A DNA stretch of 64,000 nt from Methanoculleus thermophilus (GCF_001571405.1 NZ_BCNX01000006.1:372001-436000); one strand, 5' to 3'; positions 42,234 through 48,381 are shown, numbered from the stretch's first letter. Numbers and translations: made by a program. Notes: generated by a model not told the origin, from the sequence alone.

Positions 42234-43412
42234 ATGCAAATAGAGCAGCATATGCCGTGCGAAAACCCGCTCTGGCCCTGTGCGATGACCGGGGCGGTCG
42301 CATGCCTTTCGGGATTCGATGGCCTCGCCGTCGTCGTTCATGGTTCAAGTGGGTGCTACTTCTACCCCGCGTCGCTCGTCGGCGTCCCCATCCACGGGAC
42401 GTTTCTGGTCGAGAGCGAGGTCATCTTCGGGACGGAGTCCCGCCTCATGGAGGTCATCCGGGACCTTAACGGCCGGTACTCGCAGGTAGCCGTGGTTAAT
42501 ACCTGCGTGCCCGCGATCATGGGCGAGGATCTCAGCGCCCTTGCCCGTGATGGGCGGGTCCTCTTCATCGACAGCCCCGGGTTCCTCGGCGACCTTGAGG
42601 CCGGCTACCGCCGGGCGCTCGATACGATCGCACCGGTAGTGGACCCGGATACTCCCGGCGTCAATATCGACGGCATCTGCCGTACAGACCCCTTCTGCCG
42701 GGGAAATGCGCTCGAGGCGCGACGCCTCCTCAATCTCGCCGGCGCCCCGGTCGCCGCCACCTTCTGCCTCGACCGCTACGATGCGGCGCACCGAGCAGCG
42801 CCCTTCACCGTCGGGACGAATCCGGATCTGGCAAGCGGCGTCGGGACCTGGTGCGGCTCGCTTCTCGGGCTTGATGCCGTCGGCGAGACCTTCGAGCGGC
42901 TTGAATCCCTGGTCGACGGTGTTGACTCCCGACCAATCAAAGAGGAGATCGCTTGGGCCGATGCCCGGATACAGAAGGCCTGCGGAAAGTATCTTCGAAG
43001 GTTCGACCCTCCCCGGGTGGTGATCGCCGCCCAGAGCGCGTACGCTGCGTTCGCGAAAGATTTCCTCGATCGCTACCTCGGGGCCGATATCGTCTGCATT
43101 GCCGCTCGAAACAACCCCGGTGAAGATAGCAACGGTATCACCTCCACAACCGACTTCTCGACCATCCGGGAGATGATCCTGGATGCCGAACCGGACCTGG
43201 TCATCGGATCCTCCTACGAGCGGACGCTCGCTCCCGGTGCCGCCTTCGTCGGGCTGACGCCGCCCCTCCGGGGTATGGTCCTCCTCTCGTCCCGGATGAT
43301 TGCCGGGGTCGAGGGGGCGCTCTGGTTCATGGATGAGGTGCTCAACGCCTGTGCAAACCGGAACCGGCGCTCAAAGAGCGAGAATGTGGTTCACGCCAAA
43401 GATCGGCGCTGA
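42234..43412 (+). CDS. Nitrogenase component 1-like protein (NifD/NifK homologue), copy A
   Basis: 392 residues. Three cysteines line up with the P-cluster ligands of NifD/K: C16 in PLWPCAMTGA, C41 in VHGSSGCYFYP and C91 in VVNTCVPAIMGEDL. A DxxE/FGxExxL helix follows the second (VESEVIFGTESRLMEVI). The FeMo-cofactor His/Cys region of true nitrogenase is not recognisable, so dinitrogen fixation is unlikely. A divergent partner pair (NifH-like and a second copy) lies 2.2 kb away. The HPRPS-type N-terminus I associate with CfbD of F430 synthesis is absent. Substrate unknown. Confidence 0.78.
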   Translation: MQIEQHMPCENPLWPCAMTGAVACLSGFDGLAVVVHGSSGCYFYPASLVGVPIHGTFLVESEVIFGTESRLMEVIRDLNGRYSQVAVVNTCVPAIMGEDLSALARDGRVLFIDSPGFLGDLEAGYRRALDTIAPVVDPDTPGVNIDGICRTDPFCRGNALEARRLLNLAGAPVAATFCLDRYDAAHRAAPFTVGTNPDLASGVGTWCGSLLGLDAVGETFERLESLVDGVDSRPIKEEIAWADARIQKACGKYLRRFDPPRVVIAAQSAYAAFAKDFLDRYLGADIVCIAARNNPGEDSNGITSTTDFSTIREMILDAEPDLVIGSSYERTLAPGAAFVGLTPPLRGMVLLSSRMIAGVEGALWFMDEVLNACANRNRRSKSENVVHAKDRR

Positions 43413-43613
43413 TATCTTCGGTTTCGTGAGGCTTCGGGTGAATTTGTCACCCTCCATACAACATCTCTCGAAAAGACAGGCGGAGCACGGGAGGTTTCCC
43501 ACAACCCCGAAAGAGTCCGGGGTAGTTGCGCCCACCATAAACTTTTTTATCAACCGATGAGCACCGGGGTGCCGTTCTGCCCACTGGGCAGATCGCAACA
43601 GGGAGGTTATGGG

Positions 43614-43820
43614 ATGACACACGGTGGTGGAGGCGGCCCCCACGGGCTGCTCCTTGAGCAGATGTTTGAACTCCTCGACGAGAATCAGAAGCGGCAGTTG
43701 ATGGTCCGGATGATTGAACACCGGATCAAGACGAAGGAGCACTGGGTCGAATCGATGAAGCAGAAGATCGAGACCTACAAGATGGCACGTGATATGCTCC
43801 AGGCGGGCATAAAGAAGTGA
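43614..43820 (+). CDS. Small helical protein of unknown function
   Basis: 68 residues from ATG 43614, chosen because GGGAGGT sits 7-13 bases upstream; the frame continues back to 43557 with no such site. A Gly/His-rich start (MTHGGGGGPHG) is followed by an amphipathic helical body (LLEQMFELLDENQKRQLMVR, then TKEHWVESMKQKIETYKMAR). TATA-like TTTTTTATC occurs near 43545. No family recognised. Confidence 0.6.
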   Translation: MTHGGGGGPHGLLLEQMFELLDENQKRQLMVRMIEHRIKTKEHWVESMKQKIETYKMARDMLQAGIKK

Positions 43821-43977
43821 GTCCGGGCTATGGGACACCCCGGGGATTTGATATCCCCGGGCCGAATCTCTTTTTGAACATAGGATATAGTCGGGTTGAA
43901 TGATTGCTGGAGACCGTACGCCTCGCGCTGCCAGCAGTCACGATTGTATAAACCCTCCCGATGAATAATACTCCAGT

Positions 43978-44457
43978 ATGGACCTGGTCATCAGGCAATA
44001 TTGCAAAGAGGATTTTACCTCTGTGTGTGATCTTGAGCGGGAGAATAGTCCGCAAGGGTGCAAGCCCGAGGTCTTTATCCGCCAGGCGGGGGTTCTCTTT
44101 GCCGATACCTTCCTCGTTGCGGAATGCGGCGGGGAGGTCATCGGCTATACCATCGGGGCTCTCGTGCAACAGCGCCCCGCTACCGGGTGGATCATCCGGC
44201 TGGTGGTCTCCGGGAAACACCGGCGAAAGGGTTTTGGAGATAGCCTCGTTACCGCAGTCATCAGCGGTCTTTTGGAACGCGGGGCAGAAGAGATCTATCT
44301 TTCGGTTGCACCGGGAAACAGAGCTGCACGAGCACTTTACGAAAAACATGGATTCCAGGAGACCGAGTTCTGTCCGGCCTACTTCGGTGAAGGGGCCGAT
44401 CGATACATCCTCCGGAGGAGCATCGACGATCATAAAGGTTTAACCCGTTTGTATTGA
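43978..44457 (+). CDS. GNAT-family N-acetyltransferase (RimI-like)
   Basis: 159 residues. Acetyl-CoA-binding motif A is seen as RLVVSGKHRRKGFGDSLVTAVISGL (R/Q-x-x-G-x-G/A as RRKGFG), followed by EEIYLSVAPGNRAARALYEKHGF. The N-terminal DLVIRQYCKEDFTSVCDLER is the typical RimI-like first strand and helix. It probably acetylates a protein N-terminus or small amine. TATAAA at 43947-43952 and lack of a ribosome site suggest a leaderless mRNA. Confidence 0.86.
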   Translation: MDLVIRQYCKEDFTSVCDLERENSPQGCKPEVFIRQAGVLFADTFLVAECGGEVIGYTIGALVQQRPATGWIIRLVVSGKHRRKGFGDSLVTAVISGLLERGAEEIYLSVAPGNRAARALYEKHGFQETEFCPAYFGEGADRYILRRSIDDHKGLTRLY

Positions 44458-44472
44458 TATCGGTGCGATAAC

Positions 44473-45057
44473 ATGCCTCTTATACCGCTTCGAATTGGTG
44501 AGATATTCCGACCGGCGCTGCAGTTCCGGTCATACCTCTACGCATCCCTGGCCCTGGCCGTCGTCGTCTTCATCCTGCCGTGGCTCATCCCCGTTGTCAT
44601 CTTCAGTCCACTGCCCGTTGCTCTCGCCGTCGCTATCCCGGTGCTCGCCGTTGTTGCGTTCGTCGCCTACTGGATACCCCTCTACTATGAGAGCATAGCC
44701 TACCGGCTCACCACGAGCGAGATCACCTGGCAGCGCGGCGTCTGGTTTCGGCAGACGGGGTTCGTCCCCTACAACCGGATCACAAACGTCGATATCACAC
44801 AGGGCCCCCTGATGCGGTTCTTCTCCTTCTCGGCAGTCCGGGTGCAGACCGCCGGCTACTCGGCTCAGGCGCAGGCGGAGATCGTTCTCAACGGGATCGA
44901 GGACCCAAAGGACCTCCAGGAGAAGATCATGAGTTTCGTTCGGGGAACCGGTCCGGTCGCGGTCGGGGGCGAGCCGGAGGGTCAGCCGGCCGGGGATACG
45001 GTTGTGGCGGAACTTCGGGCGATCCGGCAGTTGCTCGAGAGAGTGCTTGAAAAATAG
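44473..45057 (+). CDS. PH domain-containing membrane protein (YdbT/bPH2 type)
   Basis: 194 residues. Two membrane helices at about 23-45 and 50-70 (LALAVVVFILPWLIPVVIF; AVAIPVLAVVAFVAYWIPL) precede a bacterial-type PH domain: YRLTTSEITWQRGVWFRQTGFVPYNRITNVDITQGPLMRFFS, split across strands, with VRVQTAGYS. A long helix ends the protein. No enzymatic site. Starts 15 bases after the GNAT stop and may share its mRNA. Confidence 0.83.
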   Translation: MPLIPLRIGEIFRPALQFRSYLYASLALAVVVFILPWLIPVVIFSPLPVALAVAIPVLAVVAFVAYWIPLYYESIAYRLTTSEITWQRGVWFRQTGFVPYNRITNVDITQGPLMRFFSFSAVRVQTAGYSAQAQAEIVLNGIEDPKDLQEKIMSFVRGTGPVAVGGEPEGQPAGDTVVAELRAIRQLLERVLEK

Positions 45058-45074
45058 GATTTCTGGTACAAGAC

Positions 45075-45548
45075 CTACCTTCCCGCAGCCGCGTCCCGCT
45101 TGATAACCAGGACCGGCTGGCGGGCGTTCTTGATCACGTACTCCGAGACCGTTCCGAGCAGGCGATCCCGGAGGTTCGACCGGCCGTGGGAGCCGATGAC
45201 GATGAGCGAGACTCCCTCCGCCTCCGCTGCGTTCACGATCTCCGTTCCTGGCGTGCCGAGGGGCGTCCGGACCGTCACCTTCAGACCCTGCCTCTCAAGC
45301 GCCCGGCGGGTATCGATGATCCGGTGCTGGACCTCCTCCCGCAGTTGTCGTTGAGTTTCGGTCTCCTGGTCGGGTATGGTTCCGAGAAACCCCTGCCCAC
45401 CCGAGGCGATCGTTGTGATCTCCTTTGAGTCGATGACATGGACAAGGATCACCTCCCGGGTTCCTGCCTCCTGCAGTGCAGGGATGTAATCCAGCGCCTT
45501 CATGGAGGGTCCGGAGAAGTCGGTTGGAAAGAGGATACGTTCGAACAT
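45075..45548 (-). CDS. Universal stress protein (UspA family)
   Basis: 157 residues from ATG 45548, with GGAGTGAGG as ribosome site just upstream. FERILFPTDFSGPSMKALDY and the ATP-binding pattern GSHGRSNLRDRLLGTVSEYV (G-2x-G-9x-G-S/T) with VLVI at the C-terminus. ATP-binding UspA subclass. It is convergent with the PH-domain gene and downstream of the nitrogenase-like pair. Confidence 0.92.
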   Translation of the reverse strand: MFERILFPTDFSGPSMKALDYIPALQEAGTREVILVHVIDSKEITTIASGGQGFLGTIPDQETETQRQLREEVQHRIIDTRRALERQGLKVTVRTPLGTPGTEIVNAAEAEGVSLIVIGSHGRSNLRDRLLGTVSEYVIKNARQPVLVIKRDAAAGR

Positions 45549-45631
45549 GGGCCTCACTCCGATAACATCCCTTCCGCTGGAGATGTATAAAAGGCATCGT
45601 TTGATGGGCGAAGGAGGCGAGTGGCGGAGTG

Positions 45632-46753
45632 CTACCCGGGTGGCATCTCTCTTTCGCGCTTTGGGCGTTTGGAGTATGCCTTATCCTGCCTCATTCCCCG
45701 AATCAGAACTCTCCACCGGTGAAGCATCCGTCGAAGACCAGTAGTTCCGACCGGCGCAGGATACGGGAGGGGGATCGCCGTCCCGTCCGGGTCGACGACG
45801 AGATCGAGGGCGTCTGTACACTCGGTGCAGACGGTCTTCGCGTCCAGATCCGCGTCCAGCATGGGATGGGGCGACTGGAAGTATACCCGGCTTCCCGCGA
45901 TATCGGCGAACTCCTCAAGCATCTTCGCCTGGAATACTTTCTCCTCCGCAACGGCTGCCGTAGCATCTATGCCGCAGATCCGGCCGATCTCCTCGATGAA
46001 CCGGCATGTCCCGGCAAGGCCGACCGGGAACGAGTCTACGTATGGGATACTAAACCTCCGTTTGAAGTCCTCGCCGACCGGCCGGAGGGAGGGTTCCCGA
46101 AGAATGTTTACGGCGGCAGAGTTGAGGCACCCGACGTCATCTGTCCTGATCTCGCGCACGAACCGTAGGTTGACTGCTATACCGAGCCGGGAGAGAAGGC
46201 GCTCAATCTCGGCCGCATTCTCGTCGACGTCGTACTCCAGGTTCTTCTCGCCGATGAGGTTCGCCGAGAGGGTCTTTTCGGTCGCTGGCCGGGCCAGAGA
46301 GGCGACGGCGGAGAGGGCGTTCCTGATGCCGGTCTCAAACACCCCTCCAAGGAACCCCGCGGTCGGCACGGCAATCACCGGGATGCCCCAGTCCCGTGCA
46401 CAGACAGCCGCGACGTCGTCACCGATCGTCTCGACGATGCAGGTTGAGAGGACGAATATAGAGGCGGGCGCAGGTGAGAGCGAGATTGCCCGCGCAATCG
46501 CCCTCTCCAGCGCCTCTTCACCCCCGAAGATGATGTCGTTCTCCGTTAAGCGGGTGGTAAGGAGACGTGGGACCTCAAGCCGGTCGTTTGAGAGGTGGGT
46601 AGCGTGGAGGAGGGAAAAGTTATGGTGGGTGCAGCCCGACGGTCCATGGATGATGCAGACGGCGTCCCGTACCTCTGTGAGCACCGAGAGCGCTCCGGTC
46701 AGGGTGCATCCTTCAAACCTGGACGAATTCGAGAGCGAAGGATTCGAGTTCAT
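45632..46753 (-). CDS. Nitrogenase component 1-like protein (NifD/NifK homologue), copy B
   Basis: 373 residues from ATG 46753. P-cluster-type cysteines C16 ([11 protein letters not shown]), C41 ([11 protein letters not shown]) and C105 ([13 protein letters not shown]) are all kept, with [17 protein letters not shown] between them, closer to nitrogenase than copy A. A later Cys is in [15 protein letters not shown]. The frame overlaps the NifH-like gene by 41 bases, so the pair is co-translated. Together with copy A it could form a D/K-type heterotetramer. F430 reductase CfbD is not favoured. Confidence 0.8.
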
Positions 46754-47531
46754 CCGTCTCAAGGGGCTTTGGGATGCTCGTTGTTTTGTTCTCGTAGACG
46801 GTGCGTGCAAGTCCCCGGTAGACCGCAGCCTGGTTGGAGTCGGGGGCGTACTCGACGACCGTCTGCTTCTGTAGTTCCGCGATCTGCACCACCCGATCGC
46901 GGGGGATATAGGCGATGAGCCGTGAGTTGATCCGGCGGGCGAACTCCTCGACCAGGTCCCGCTCGCCCTCGATATTCTTTGCGTTGCAGATCACCCCACC
47001 GAGGGTGCACCTGCTTCGCACTCTGCGTGAGAGGCGGGCGATGGCTTTTGCAATGTTGTTTGCTGCGTAGATGGACATCAGTTCGCCGGAGGTGACAAGA
47101 TAGATCTCCTGCGCGTATCCATCCCGCATCGGCATTGCAAACCCGCCGCAGACGACATCTCCGAGGACATCGTAGACGATGACATCGCCTTTGAGGGCTT
47201 CCAGGCGCTCAAGGAGCTGGAACGTTGCAATGATTCCCCGCCCGGCGCACCCGATCCCCGGCTCCGGGCCGCCGGCCTCCACACAGCGCACGCCTGAAAA
47301 CCCCCGGTAGACCACGTCGCCGACGGTGATCTCCGCCTCCCCGCGCTCCCGGATAAGGTCGAGGACCGTCGGGATCCAGGTCCCGTGCATCAGCATGCGG
47401 GTGCTGTCATGTTTCGGATCGCAGCCGATCTGCAGGATATCGAGCCCATCCTCTGCGAGTGCTGCCGATAGGTTTGCTGCAGTAGTGGATTTTCCGATTC
47501 CACCCTTCCCGTAGAGGGCGATCTGTTTCAT
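46713..47531 (-). CDS. Nitrogenase iron protein-like ATPase (NifH homologue)
   Basis: 272 residues of the NifH/BchL/CfbC family: P-loop GKGGIGKST (8-16), [10 protein letters not shown], [4Fe-4S] ligands C95 (GIGCAGRG) and C128 ([12 protein letters not shown]), and switch regions. It would donate electrons one at a time to a component-1-like partner at the cost of ATP. The partner is the overlapping downstream gene. No nifE/N/B/V or P-II regulators are near, so it is a nitrogenase-like reductase rather than a nitrogenase. Confidence 0.86.
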
Positions 47532-47601: not shown

Positions 47602-47760
47602 TTGCTGTAATTCAGTCCGTCTTTTTGAGAATTCCTTTAGCCACAATTCTTAGTGTTTGGCCACTGTATAATTATCTGGCAATTATAATTGAAATTTTAG
47701 ATTTAGAAAAGTATATTATAGTCGATATGAAACTCTTTGTTAGGCAGAGGGAGACGAACC

Positions 47761-48381
47761 ATGGACCCACGATTCAGATCACGGTTGGTTGCGGCGATTA
47801 TCCTGATCATCGTCGTTTGTTCGGCCTTTTCGGTGAGCCCGGTTAGTGGTTTCCGTCTGGAAAACAGGGATGGGGACAGCACTGAAGCGGCGATTGCAGA
47901 GGCTCTGGTGCTCCAGCAGAGCACCAAGATCAGGGATGAGTTCATCGAGGATGTGACAGTCTACATCGACAGCGCAAACCCGGCCTTCCGGCAACAGGAT
48001 GCGTCGACGAACCCAGGCGGCCTGTATATCCCTGAGGAGAACGCCATCTATATTCGCTCAGATAAGGACCCGTCACGGGCCGATGAGGTCTTCGTCCAGC
48101 AGGTCGGGTACCGCGTCTACCACACCATGGGGTTTGATGAGAGCACAGTCTTCCCGACTCTTGGCGTTGCCCCTGGATCCTACCTGGACCAGGTCAACAC
48201 CCCGGCCGGCGAGGATAAGGAGGCTGCTGTCTTCGCAGAGGCCTTCATGCTCTATCACACCTCTCCAGACCTCCTTGAGGAGGATGCCCCGGAGATTTAT
48301 GCCTACATGGACTTGCTGGTCGAGAGCGGTGGGGACTGCGCAACGGTGGACGACCAATATATCAACTATCAGCCGGAGTAA
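47761..48381 (+). CDS. Secreted protein of unknown function
   Basis: 206 residues from ATG 47761 (preceded by GAGGGAGACG). Signal peptide at about 1-33 with a hydrophobic core (LVAAIILIIVVCSAFSVS) and a likely cut before VSGFRLEN. The mature part is acidic and has an E-rich helix, VQQVGYRVYHTMGF and FAEAFMLYHTSPDLLEE, reminiscent of zincin-type metallopeptidase-like domains, but no HExxH motif exists. Divergent from the NifH-like gene. Confidence 0.7.
   Translation: MDPRFRSRLVAAIILIIVVCSAFSVSPVSGFRLENRDGDSTEAAIAEALVLQQSTKIRDEFIEDVTVYIDSANPAFRQQDASTNPGGLYIPEENAIYIRSDKDPSRADEVFVQQVGYRVYHTMGFDESTVFPTLGVAPGSYLDQVNTPAGEDKEAAVFAEAFMLYHTSPDLLEEDAPEIYAYMDLLVESGGDCATVDDQYINYQPE

Follow-up and report, generated by a model that had tools for sequence, protein, structure and literature searches.

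An order-wide nitrogenase-like locus of Methanomicrobiales whose NifH-type protein most likely stands in for CfbC

The genes nflD and nflH have been reported in all methanogens by Kaster et al. 2011 (PMC3087415). Dos Santos et al. 2012 described nitrogenase-like pairs that have three cysteines per subunit and lack ligands for the iron-molybdenum cofactor (FeMoco), as well as the single-subunit NflD, i.e. CfbD; Methanoculleus is not mentioned there (PMC3464626). CfbD is treated as a distant homologue in papers on the activation of methyl-coenzyme M reductase (MCR; PMC12176620) and on methylthio-alkane reductase (Mar; PMC12552129). Here, a nitrogenase-like trio of Methanoculleus thermophilus is characterized, which encodes a NifH-type protein (H) and two component-1-like proteins (A and B). 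The trio spans positions 42234-47531 of a stretch of 64,000 nucleotides (GCF_001571405.1 NZ_BCNX01000006.1:372001-436000), referred to as the window. The locus is real and order-wide. It represents a new lineage of uncharacterised nitrogenase-like system, with a reductase most likely standing in for CfbC. No description of an H-B-A operon or of a CfbC replacement in Methanomicrobiales was found in a literature search, for which subscription papers were out of reach.

Gene A (42234-43412, + strand) encodes a component-1-like subunit of the NifK/N side with 392 amino acids (PF00148, E 2e-37). Gene B (45632-46753, - strand) encodes a component-1-like subunit of the NifD/E side with 373 amino acids (PF00148, E 3e-55), and H (46713-47531, - strand) a NifH-type ATP-driven iron protein with 272 amino acids (PF00142, E 5e-109). 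The frame of B, which ends with the stop codon at 45632, is open as far as a TTG at 46810, and the ATG at 46753 is the best start, as this methionine is kept in all 21 orthologues. H and B overlap by 41 nt. A preceding reading of the DNA, made by a model without database searches (the sequence-only reading), had reported a NifH-like gene overlapping a component-1-like gene and a second component-1-like gene 2.2 kb away on the other strand, and these open reading frames (ORFs) are confirmed. The cysteines that it singled out are likewise conserved. The P-cluster-type residues C16, C41 and C91 of A and C16, C41 and C105 of B are invariant in 21/21 orthologues from six families, so that both subunits carry the three P-cluster cysteines known from nitrogenase NifDK; C9 of A and C118 of B are also invariant. 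Of the two cluster cysteines of H, C128 is invariant in the orthologue alignment and C95 is found in all 20 rows that reach this position.

The host genus belongs to the order Methanomicrobiales, from which 150 genomes were sampled, and the phylum was represented by 294 genomes. Counted from the match lists, A orthologues are present in 141 and B orthologues in 138 of the 150 genomes of the order, and most gaps are fragmented metagenome-assembled genomes. No close A orthologue was found outside Methanomicrobiales among the 294 genomes of the phylum, where only remote matches occur. Full-length matches to A with approximately 25% identity (G278, G305, G333, G376 and G282) were rejected as orthologues, as they are members of different nitrogenase-like pairs. 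In some genomes outside the order, nitrogenase-like H, D and K genes occur as multi-gene arrays (L250, L252 and L304, with G278 and G376, as well as G305), and G305 alone has 17 PF00148 matches.

H, B and A are found together in all 20 sampled loci from six families, usually as co-oriented, overlapping genes in the order H-B-A. Across families, the region upstream of H encodes FprA-like, PRK-like and TrkH-like proteins, and a LeuB-D-C-type cluster is found beyond A. The H-B-A operon is ancestral in Methanomicrobiales. In the window, A is inverted, adjoins LeuB and is 2.2 kb away from B. In the Methanoculleus genome G084, A is still encoded downstream of B on the same strand, and the separation seen here is a local rearrangement of the ancestral order. 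An assignment of function from the neighbours was rejected, as the conserved flanks (LeuC-D-B type, TrkH-like, PRK-like and FprA-like) look like general synteny. Two genomes of 99% completeness, G047 and G149, have lost B and A, while H has stayed in its ancestral place, preceded by FprA-like and by TrkH-like or PRK-like genes. A short ORF starting with MLEKAGY follows H in both, at the place where B would be (L244 8215-8730 and L293 2513-2932), and is unrelated to B and A. In G047, CfbD is the sole PF00148 protein. G149 has 5 NifH-family and 11 PF00148 matches, and a 671-aa ORF of this genome (L249 8441-10456) holds a NifH-type domain that is apparently fused to a component-1-like part.

The sequence-only reading had observed that A and B lack the HPRPS-type N-terminus of CfbD and had advised a check for a separate cfbCD locus. 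The true CfbD, with a QPRPS N-terminus and 513 bits (cut-off 268), is encoded on a different contig, C4, where it adjoins CfbE (340, cut-off 250) and a CfbB-like gene that is clipped by the locus end. No cfbC lies between the genes of this cfbE-D-B cluster and no separate cfbC was found in the genome. In other families of the phylum, most of the fetched CfbC genes adjoin cfbD. Across the order, CfbD exceeds the cut-off in 136/150 genomes and is encoded apart from H-B-A, although the distance is only about 10-16 kb in some genera.

H reaches 422.1 bits with the CfbC model NF033200 and passes its cut-off of 402, whereas the second NifH-like protein of this genome, encoded on contig C7, remains below it (350). 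H is moreover the sole NifH-family protein in most CfbD-bearing genomes. Both observations would fit an ordinary, fast-evolving CfbC that moved away from cfbD and gained B and A as neighbours, with no displacement involved. We regard this explanation as unlikely, because the tree positions differ. In a tree with 69 rows, H is located apart from CfbC and shares a group with NifH and a small number of NifH-like proteins (95/87). After removal of long rows, H and CfbC form separate clades, each supported with at least 100/98, and a tree in which they are united is worse by 18 log units (approximately unbiased (AU) test, p 0.010). Similarly, the closest small-panel match of CfbD-linked CfbC proteins is mostly the C7 protein, with about 45% identity, and not H, whereas H shares 52.9% identity with a rhizobial NifH.

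Exactly one NifH-family protein, namely H, is encoded in about 101 of the 141 genomes of the order with a NifH-family match (counted by hand), and H is the only such protein in 13/13 genomes checked by locus; the present genome has two. In these roughly 101 genomes, H is therefore the only candidate reductase for CfbD. Since G047 and G149 keep H without B and A, H has a role independent of A-B, and the simplest reading of this retention is that H serves CfbD. By the same token, A-B is dispensable for F430, as two lineages have lost it. H most likely replaced CfbC, and we are largely confident that it is the working CfbC of Methanomicrobiales. As H is the only available CfbD partner in most relatives, the trio is tied to F430 biosynthesis, a connection that the sequence-only reading had not foreseen. 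The model NF033200 (F430_CfbC) admits H, which is located outside the CfbC clade, and automatic CfbC annotation in Methanomicrobiales may thus rest on a paralogue.

Neither A nor B reaches any NCBIfam cut-off. With the CfbD model TIGR03282 (cut-off 268.4 bits), A scores 43.1 and B 51.8, and B scores 70.4 bits with the BchB model (cut-off 490). In the component-1 phylogeny, A, B and CfbD form three separate 100/100 clades on long stems. This tree is based on a reduced set, used instead of a first, quickly searched tree with long branches that included Bch and the unusual G149 copies. The A and B clades are located outside NifD/E, NifK/N and the other sampled nitrogenase-like pairs, while the deep branch order is not settled by the trees. 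By sequence search, B is placed on the NifD/E side and A nearer to NifK/N. In an alignment with NifD, B has an invariant arginine (Arg219) at the position of NifD Cys275, which is equivalent to the cluster-binding cysteine of NifE. A counterpart of NifD His442 is missing from B, and its C-terminal domain is shortened. In the same alignment, one of the three P-cluster-type cysteines is missing from CfbD. B has a cysteine where BchB uses Asp36 as a cluster ligand.

The cut-offs, ligands and trees rule out A or B as CfbD, NifDK, NifEN or BchNB. A-B is an uncharacterised nitrogenase-like pair composed of two separate deep component-1 lineages. Placement of B and H within the CfbCD clade in a genome with no other cfbCD, named in advance as the outcome that would speak against a novel system, did not come out: B and H fall outside CfbD and CfbC, respectively, and a cfbD gene is encoded elsewhere. 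The trio is nitrogenase-like in the broad 'group IV' sense, i.e. a NifH-type protein with a PF00148 component 1 that lacks FeMoco ligands. The proposal of an uncharacterised group IV reductase is thus supported in part, namely for A and B as a loose group IV pair that is not CfbD, Nif or Bch.

Missing cysteine and histidine ligands of FeMoco exclude a FeMoco enzyme and argue against an L-cluster scaffold. Because both ligands are missing, a cofactor of the FeMoco or L-cluster type is expected to be absent from A-B. With Arg219 and without a His442 counterpart in B, nitrogen fixation by A-B is, judged from sequence, very unlikely. Alternatively, A-B could work with H in the maturation or delivery of a complex Fe-S cluster, as a scaffold or carrier of the NifEN kind rather than as a catalytic reductase. 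NifE is the best NCBIfam match of B (125.6 bits, E 2e-36), an extra cysteine after the third P-cluster cysteine is found in both B and NifE, and NifB is present in 16/16 genomes searched. One such cluster could be the [8Fe-9S-C] type described in the MCR activation complex (PMC12176620). However, the score is far below the NifE cut-off of 505, and the cluster-binding cysteine of NifE is replaced by the invariant arginine. Furthermore, two genomes with NifB and CfbD are without A-B, and other orders have NifB without A-B. A scaffold function is therefore considered quite improbable.

Two stand-in functions of A-B were rejected. NifB is found in all 16 genomes searched, including G047 and G149, and does not need to be substituted by A-B. 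The cobalt-precorrin-6A reductase CbiJ (PF02571) is absent from all 16 Methanomicrobiales and outgroup genomes searched, the present one included; as the outgroup families without A-B also lack it, this absence is not discriminating. Neither the NifB nor the CbiJ result favours a particular substrate of A-B. The NifB homologue of M. thermophilus is located on contig C7 (54946-55764), not near the H-B-A locus. The earlier statement that nif cofactor genes are missing accordingly holds for the vicinity of the locus and for NifE/N-type genes, none of which were found in the genome beyond the locus and C7 matches, but not for NifB.

Structure models predicted with AlphaFold (mean predicted local distance difference test score 88.6 for B and 87.9 for A) have their best match in BchB of the dark-operative protochlorophyllide oxidoreductase (DPOR), with Z 35.1 and 3.0 Å over 367 residues for A and Z 31.0 and 4.1 Å over 344 residues for B. 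The best chains of other families are about 3 Z units below BchB. The matches of A that rank next include Mar chains (Z 32.0), and known heteromeric nitrogenase-like enzymes of this type act on sulfur compounds (PMC12552129, PMC11423573). H-A-B could accordingly reduce a non-tetrapyrrole, e.g. an organosulfur compound as in methylthio-alkane reduction or isethionate assimilation. This is rather unlikely, as no sulfur-metabolism gene is conserved next to H-B-A in the loci compared, and B lacks the cofactor cysteine of the Cys275 position in the alignment with NifD. The neighbours expected for such an enzyme belong to another locus instead. A second NifH-D-K-like trio is encoded on contig C7 (242965-246860, - strand; L010 6966-10860) near SepCysS and O-acetylhomoserine sulfhydrylase, neighbours of the kind also reported for methylthio-alkane reductase, and its D subunit retains the cofactor cysteine.

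In the proposed mechanism, H would have displaced the canonical CfbC as an ATP-driven NifH-type reductase. Reduced by a low-potential donor, it would dock in turn on CfbD and on A-B. A and B would pair as NifK and NifD do, and an Fe-S cluster at their interface, P-cluster-like or [4Fe-4S], may be held by up to six cysteines, three per subunit; such a six-cysteine cluster is possible on the basis of the conserved residues. Electrons would pass from H via the interface cluster to an organic substrate in a cavity, without a FeMoco-type cofactor. H-A-B is probably a two-component reductase that depends on ATP and acts on a substrate other than N2. The DPOR-like fold and the F430 link via H point to a tetrapyrrole-type conjugated ring as the likeliest substrate class, and this assignment to tetrapyrroles is tentative. 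The explanation as a whole, in which H displaced CfbC and feeds both CfbD and an A-B reductase, is held with moderate confidence. It is equally plausible at the level of the order that CfbC was displaced by a NifH-type protein shared by CfbD and a new heteromeric enzyme with 3 + 3 cysteines, no FeMoco-type cofactor and a still undiscovered substrate that is used throughout the order.

Several points weigh against this explanation. H exceeds the CfbC cut-off, so the displacement rests on the trees, in which the grouping of H with NifH has 93-95% support, and the groups compared in the AU test were named after the first tree had been seen. The fold match to DPOR is no proof of a tetrapyrrole substrate, and the usual active-site cavity could be absent owing to the shortened third domain of B. 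No tetrapyrrole pathway gene consistently adjoins H-B-A in the loci compared. Docking of H on A-B is predicted from the operon.

Cofactor F430 is needed for biological methane formation, and CfbC is commonly regarded as the reductase of its key step. Throughout one order, another NifH-type protein seems to fill this role, which is named CfbC only because the model threshold admits it. The A-B operon is kept by nearly all Methanomicrobiales, even in genomes of about 1.8 Mb, and points to a widespread ATP-dependent reductase of methanogens that awaits its substrate. H also offers a natural example of the way in which a single iron protein could work with two component-1 partners.

Further genes were observed around the locus. 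In one f2 genome, a PF02579 (NifX/NafY-like) gene is directly convergent to A (L076 4843-5418), and L077 and L079 have ORFs of comparable size and position. In the window, a 214-aa ORF (47737-48381, + strand) has a sub-threshold match to the metalloprotease-type family PF07737 (20.7 bits, cut-off 27.4), which is probably a distant peptidase-like fold or chance.

Among the known systems, CfbC/CfbD, the Ni-sirohydrochlorin a,c-diamide reductive cyclase, resembles the trio as an ATP-driven iron protein with a component 1 in methanogens, and H scores above the CfbC cut-off and probably acts as the reductase of CfbD in the order. In contrast to CfbD with its two cysteines, A and B are two unlike subunits with three cysteines each and score far below the CfbD cut-off, and H does not fall within the clade of CfbC proteins linked to CfbD. 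DPOR (BchL/BchN/BchB) shares the closest fold with A and B, a heteromeric component 1 and the lack of FeMoco ligands. It differs in that A and B keep all three cysteines, with a cysteine of B at the BchB Asp36 position; sequence identity is about 20%, and the NCBIfam cut-offs for BchB and BchN are not reached. Nitrogenase and its scaffold (NifDK/NifEN) are similar in the placement of B on the NifD/E side and of A nearer to NifK/N, and in the complete P-cluster-type cysteines of both. However, B lacks Cys275 and His442, A and B are separate deep lineages, and the cut-offs for NifD, NifK, NifE and NifN are not reached. Mar and other nitrogenase-like enzymes likewise combine one H with two unlike component-1 subunits in a reductase for substrates other than N2. 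Mar contains both a P-cluster and an [Fe8S9C] cluster (PMC12552129), whereas B lacks the cofactor cysteine and H-B-A has no sulfhydrylase neighbour. By description, the trio also resembles the 'yellow' clades of NifE/NifN-like pairs, with three P-cluster-type cysteines per subunit and no FeMoco ligands (PMC3464626).

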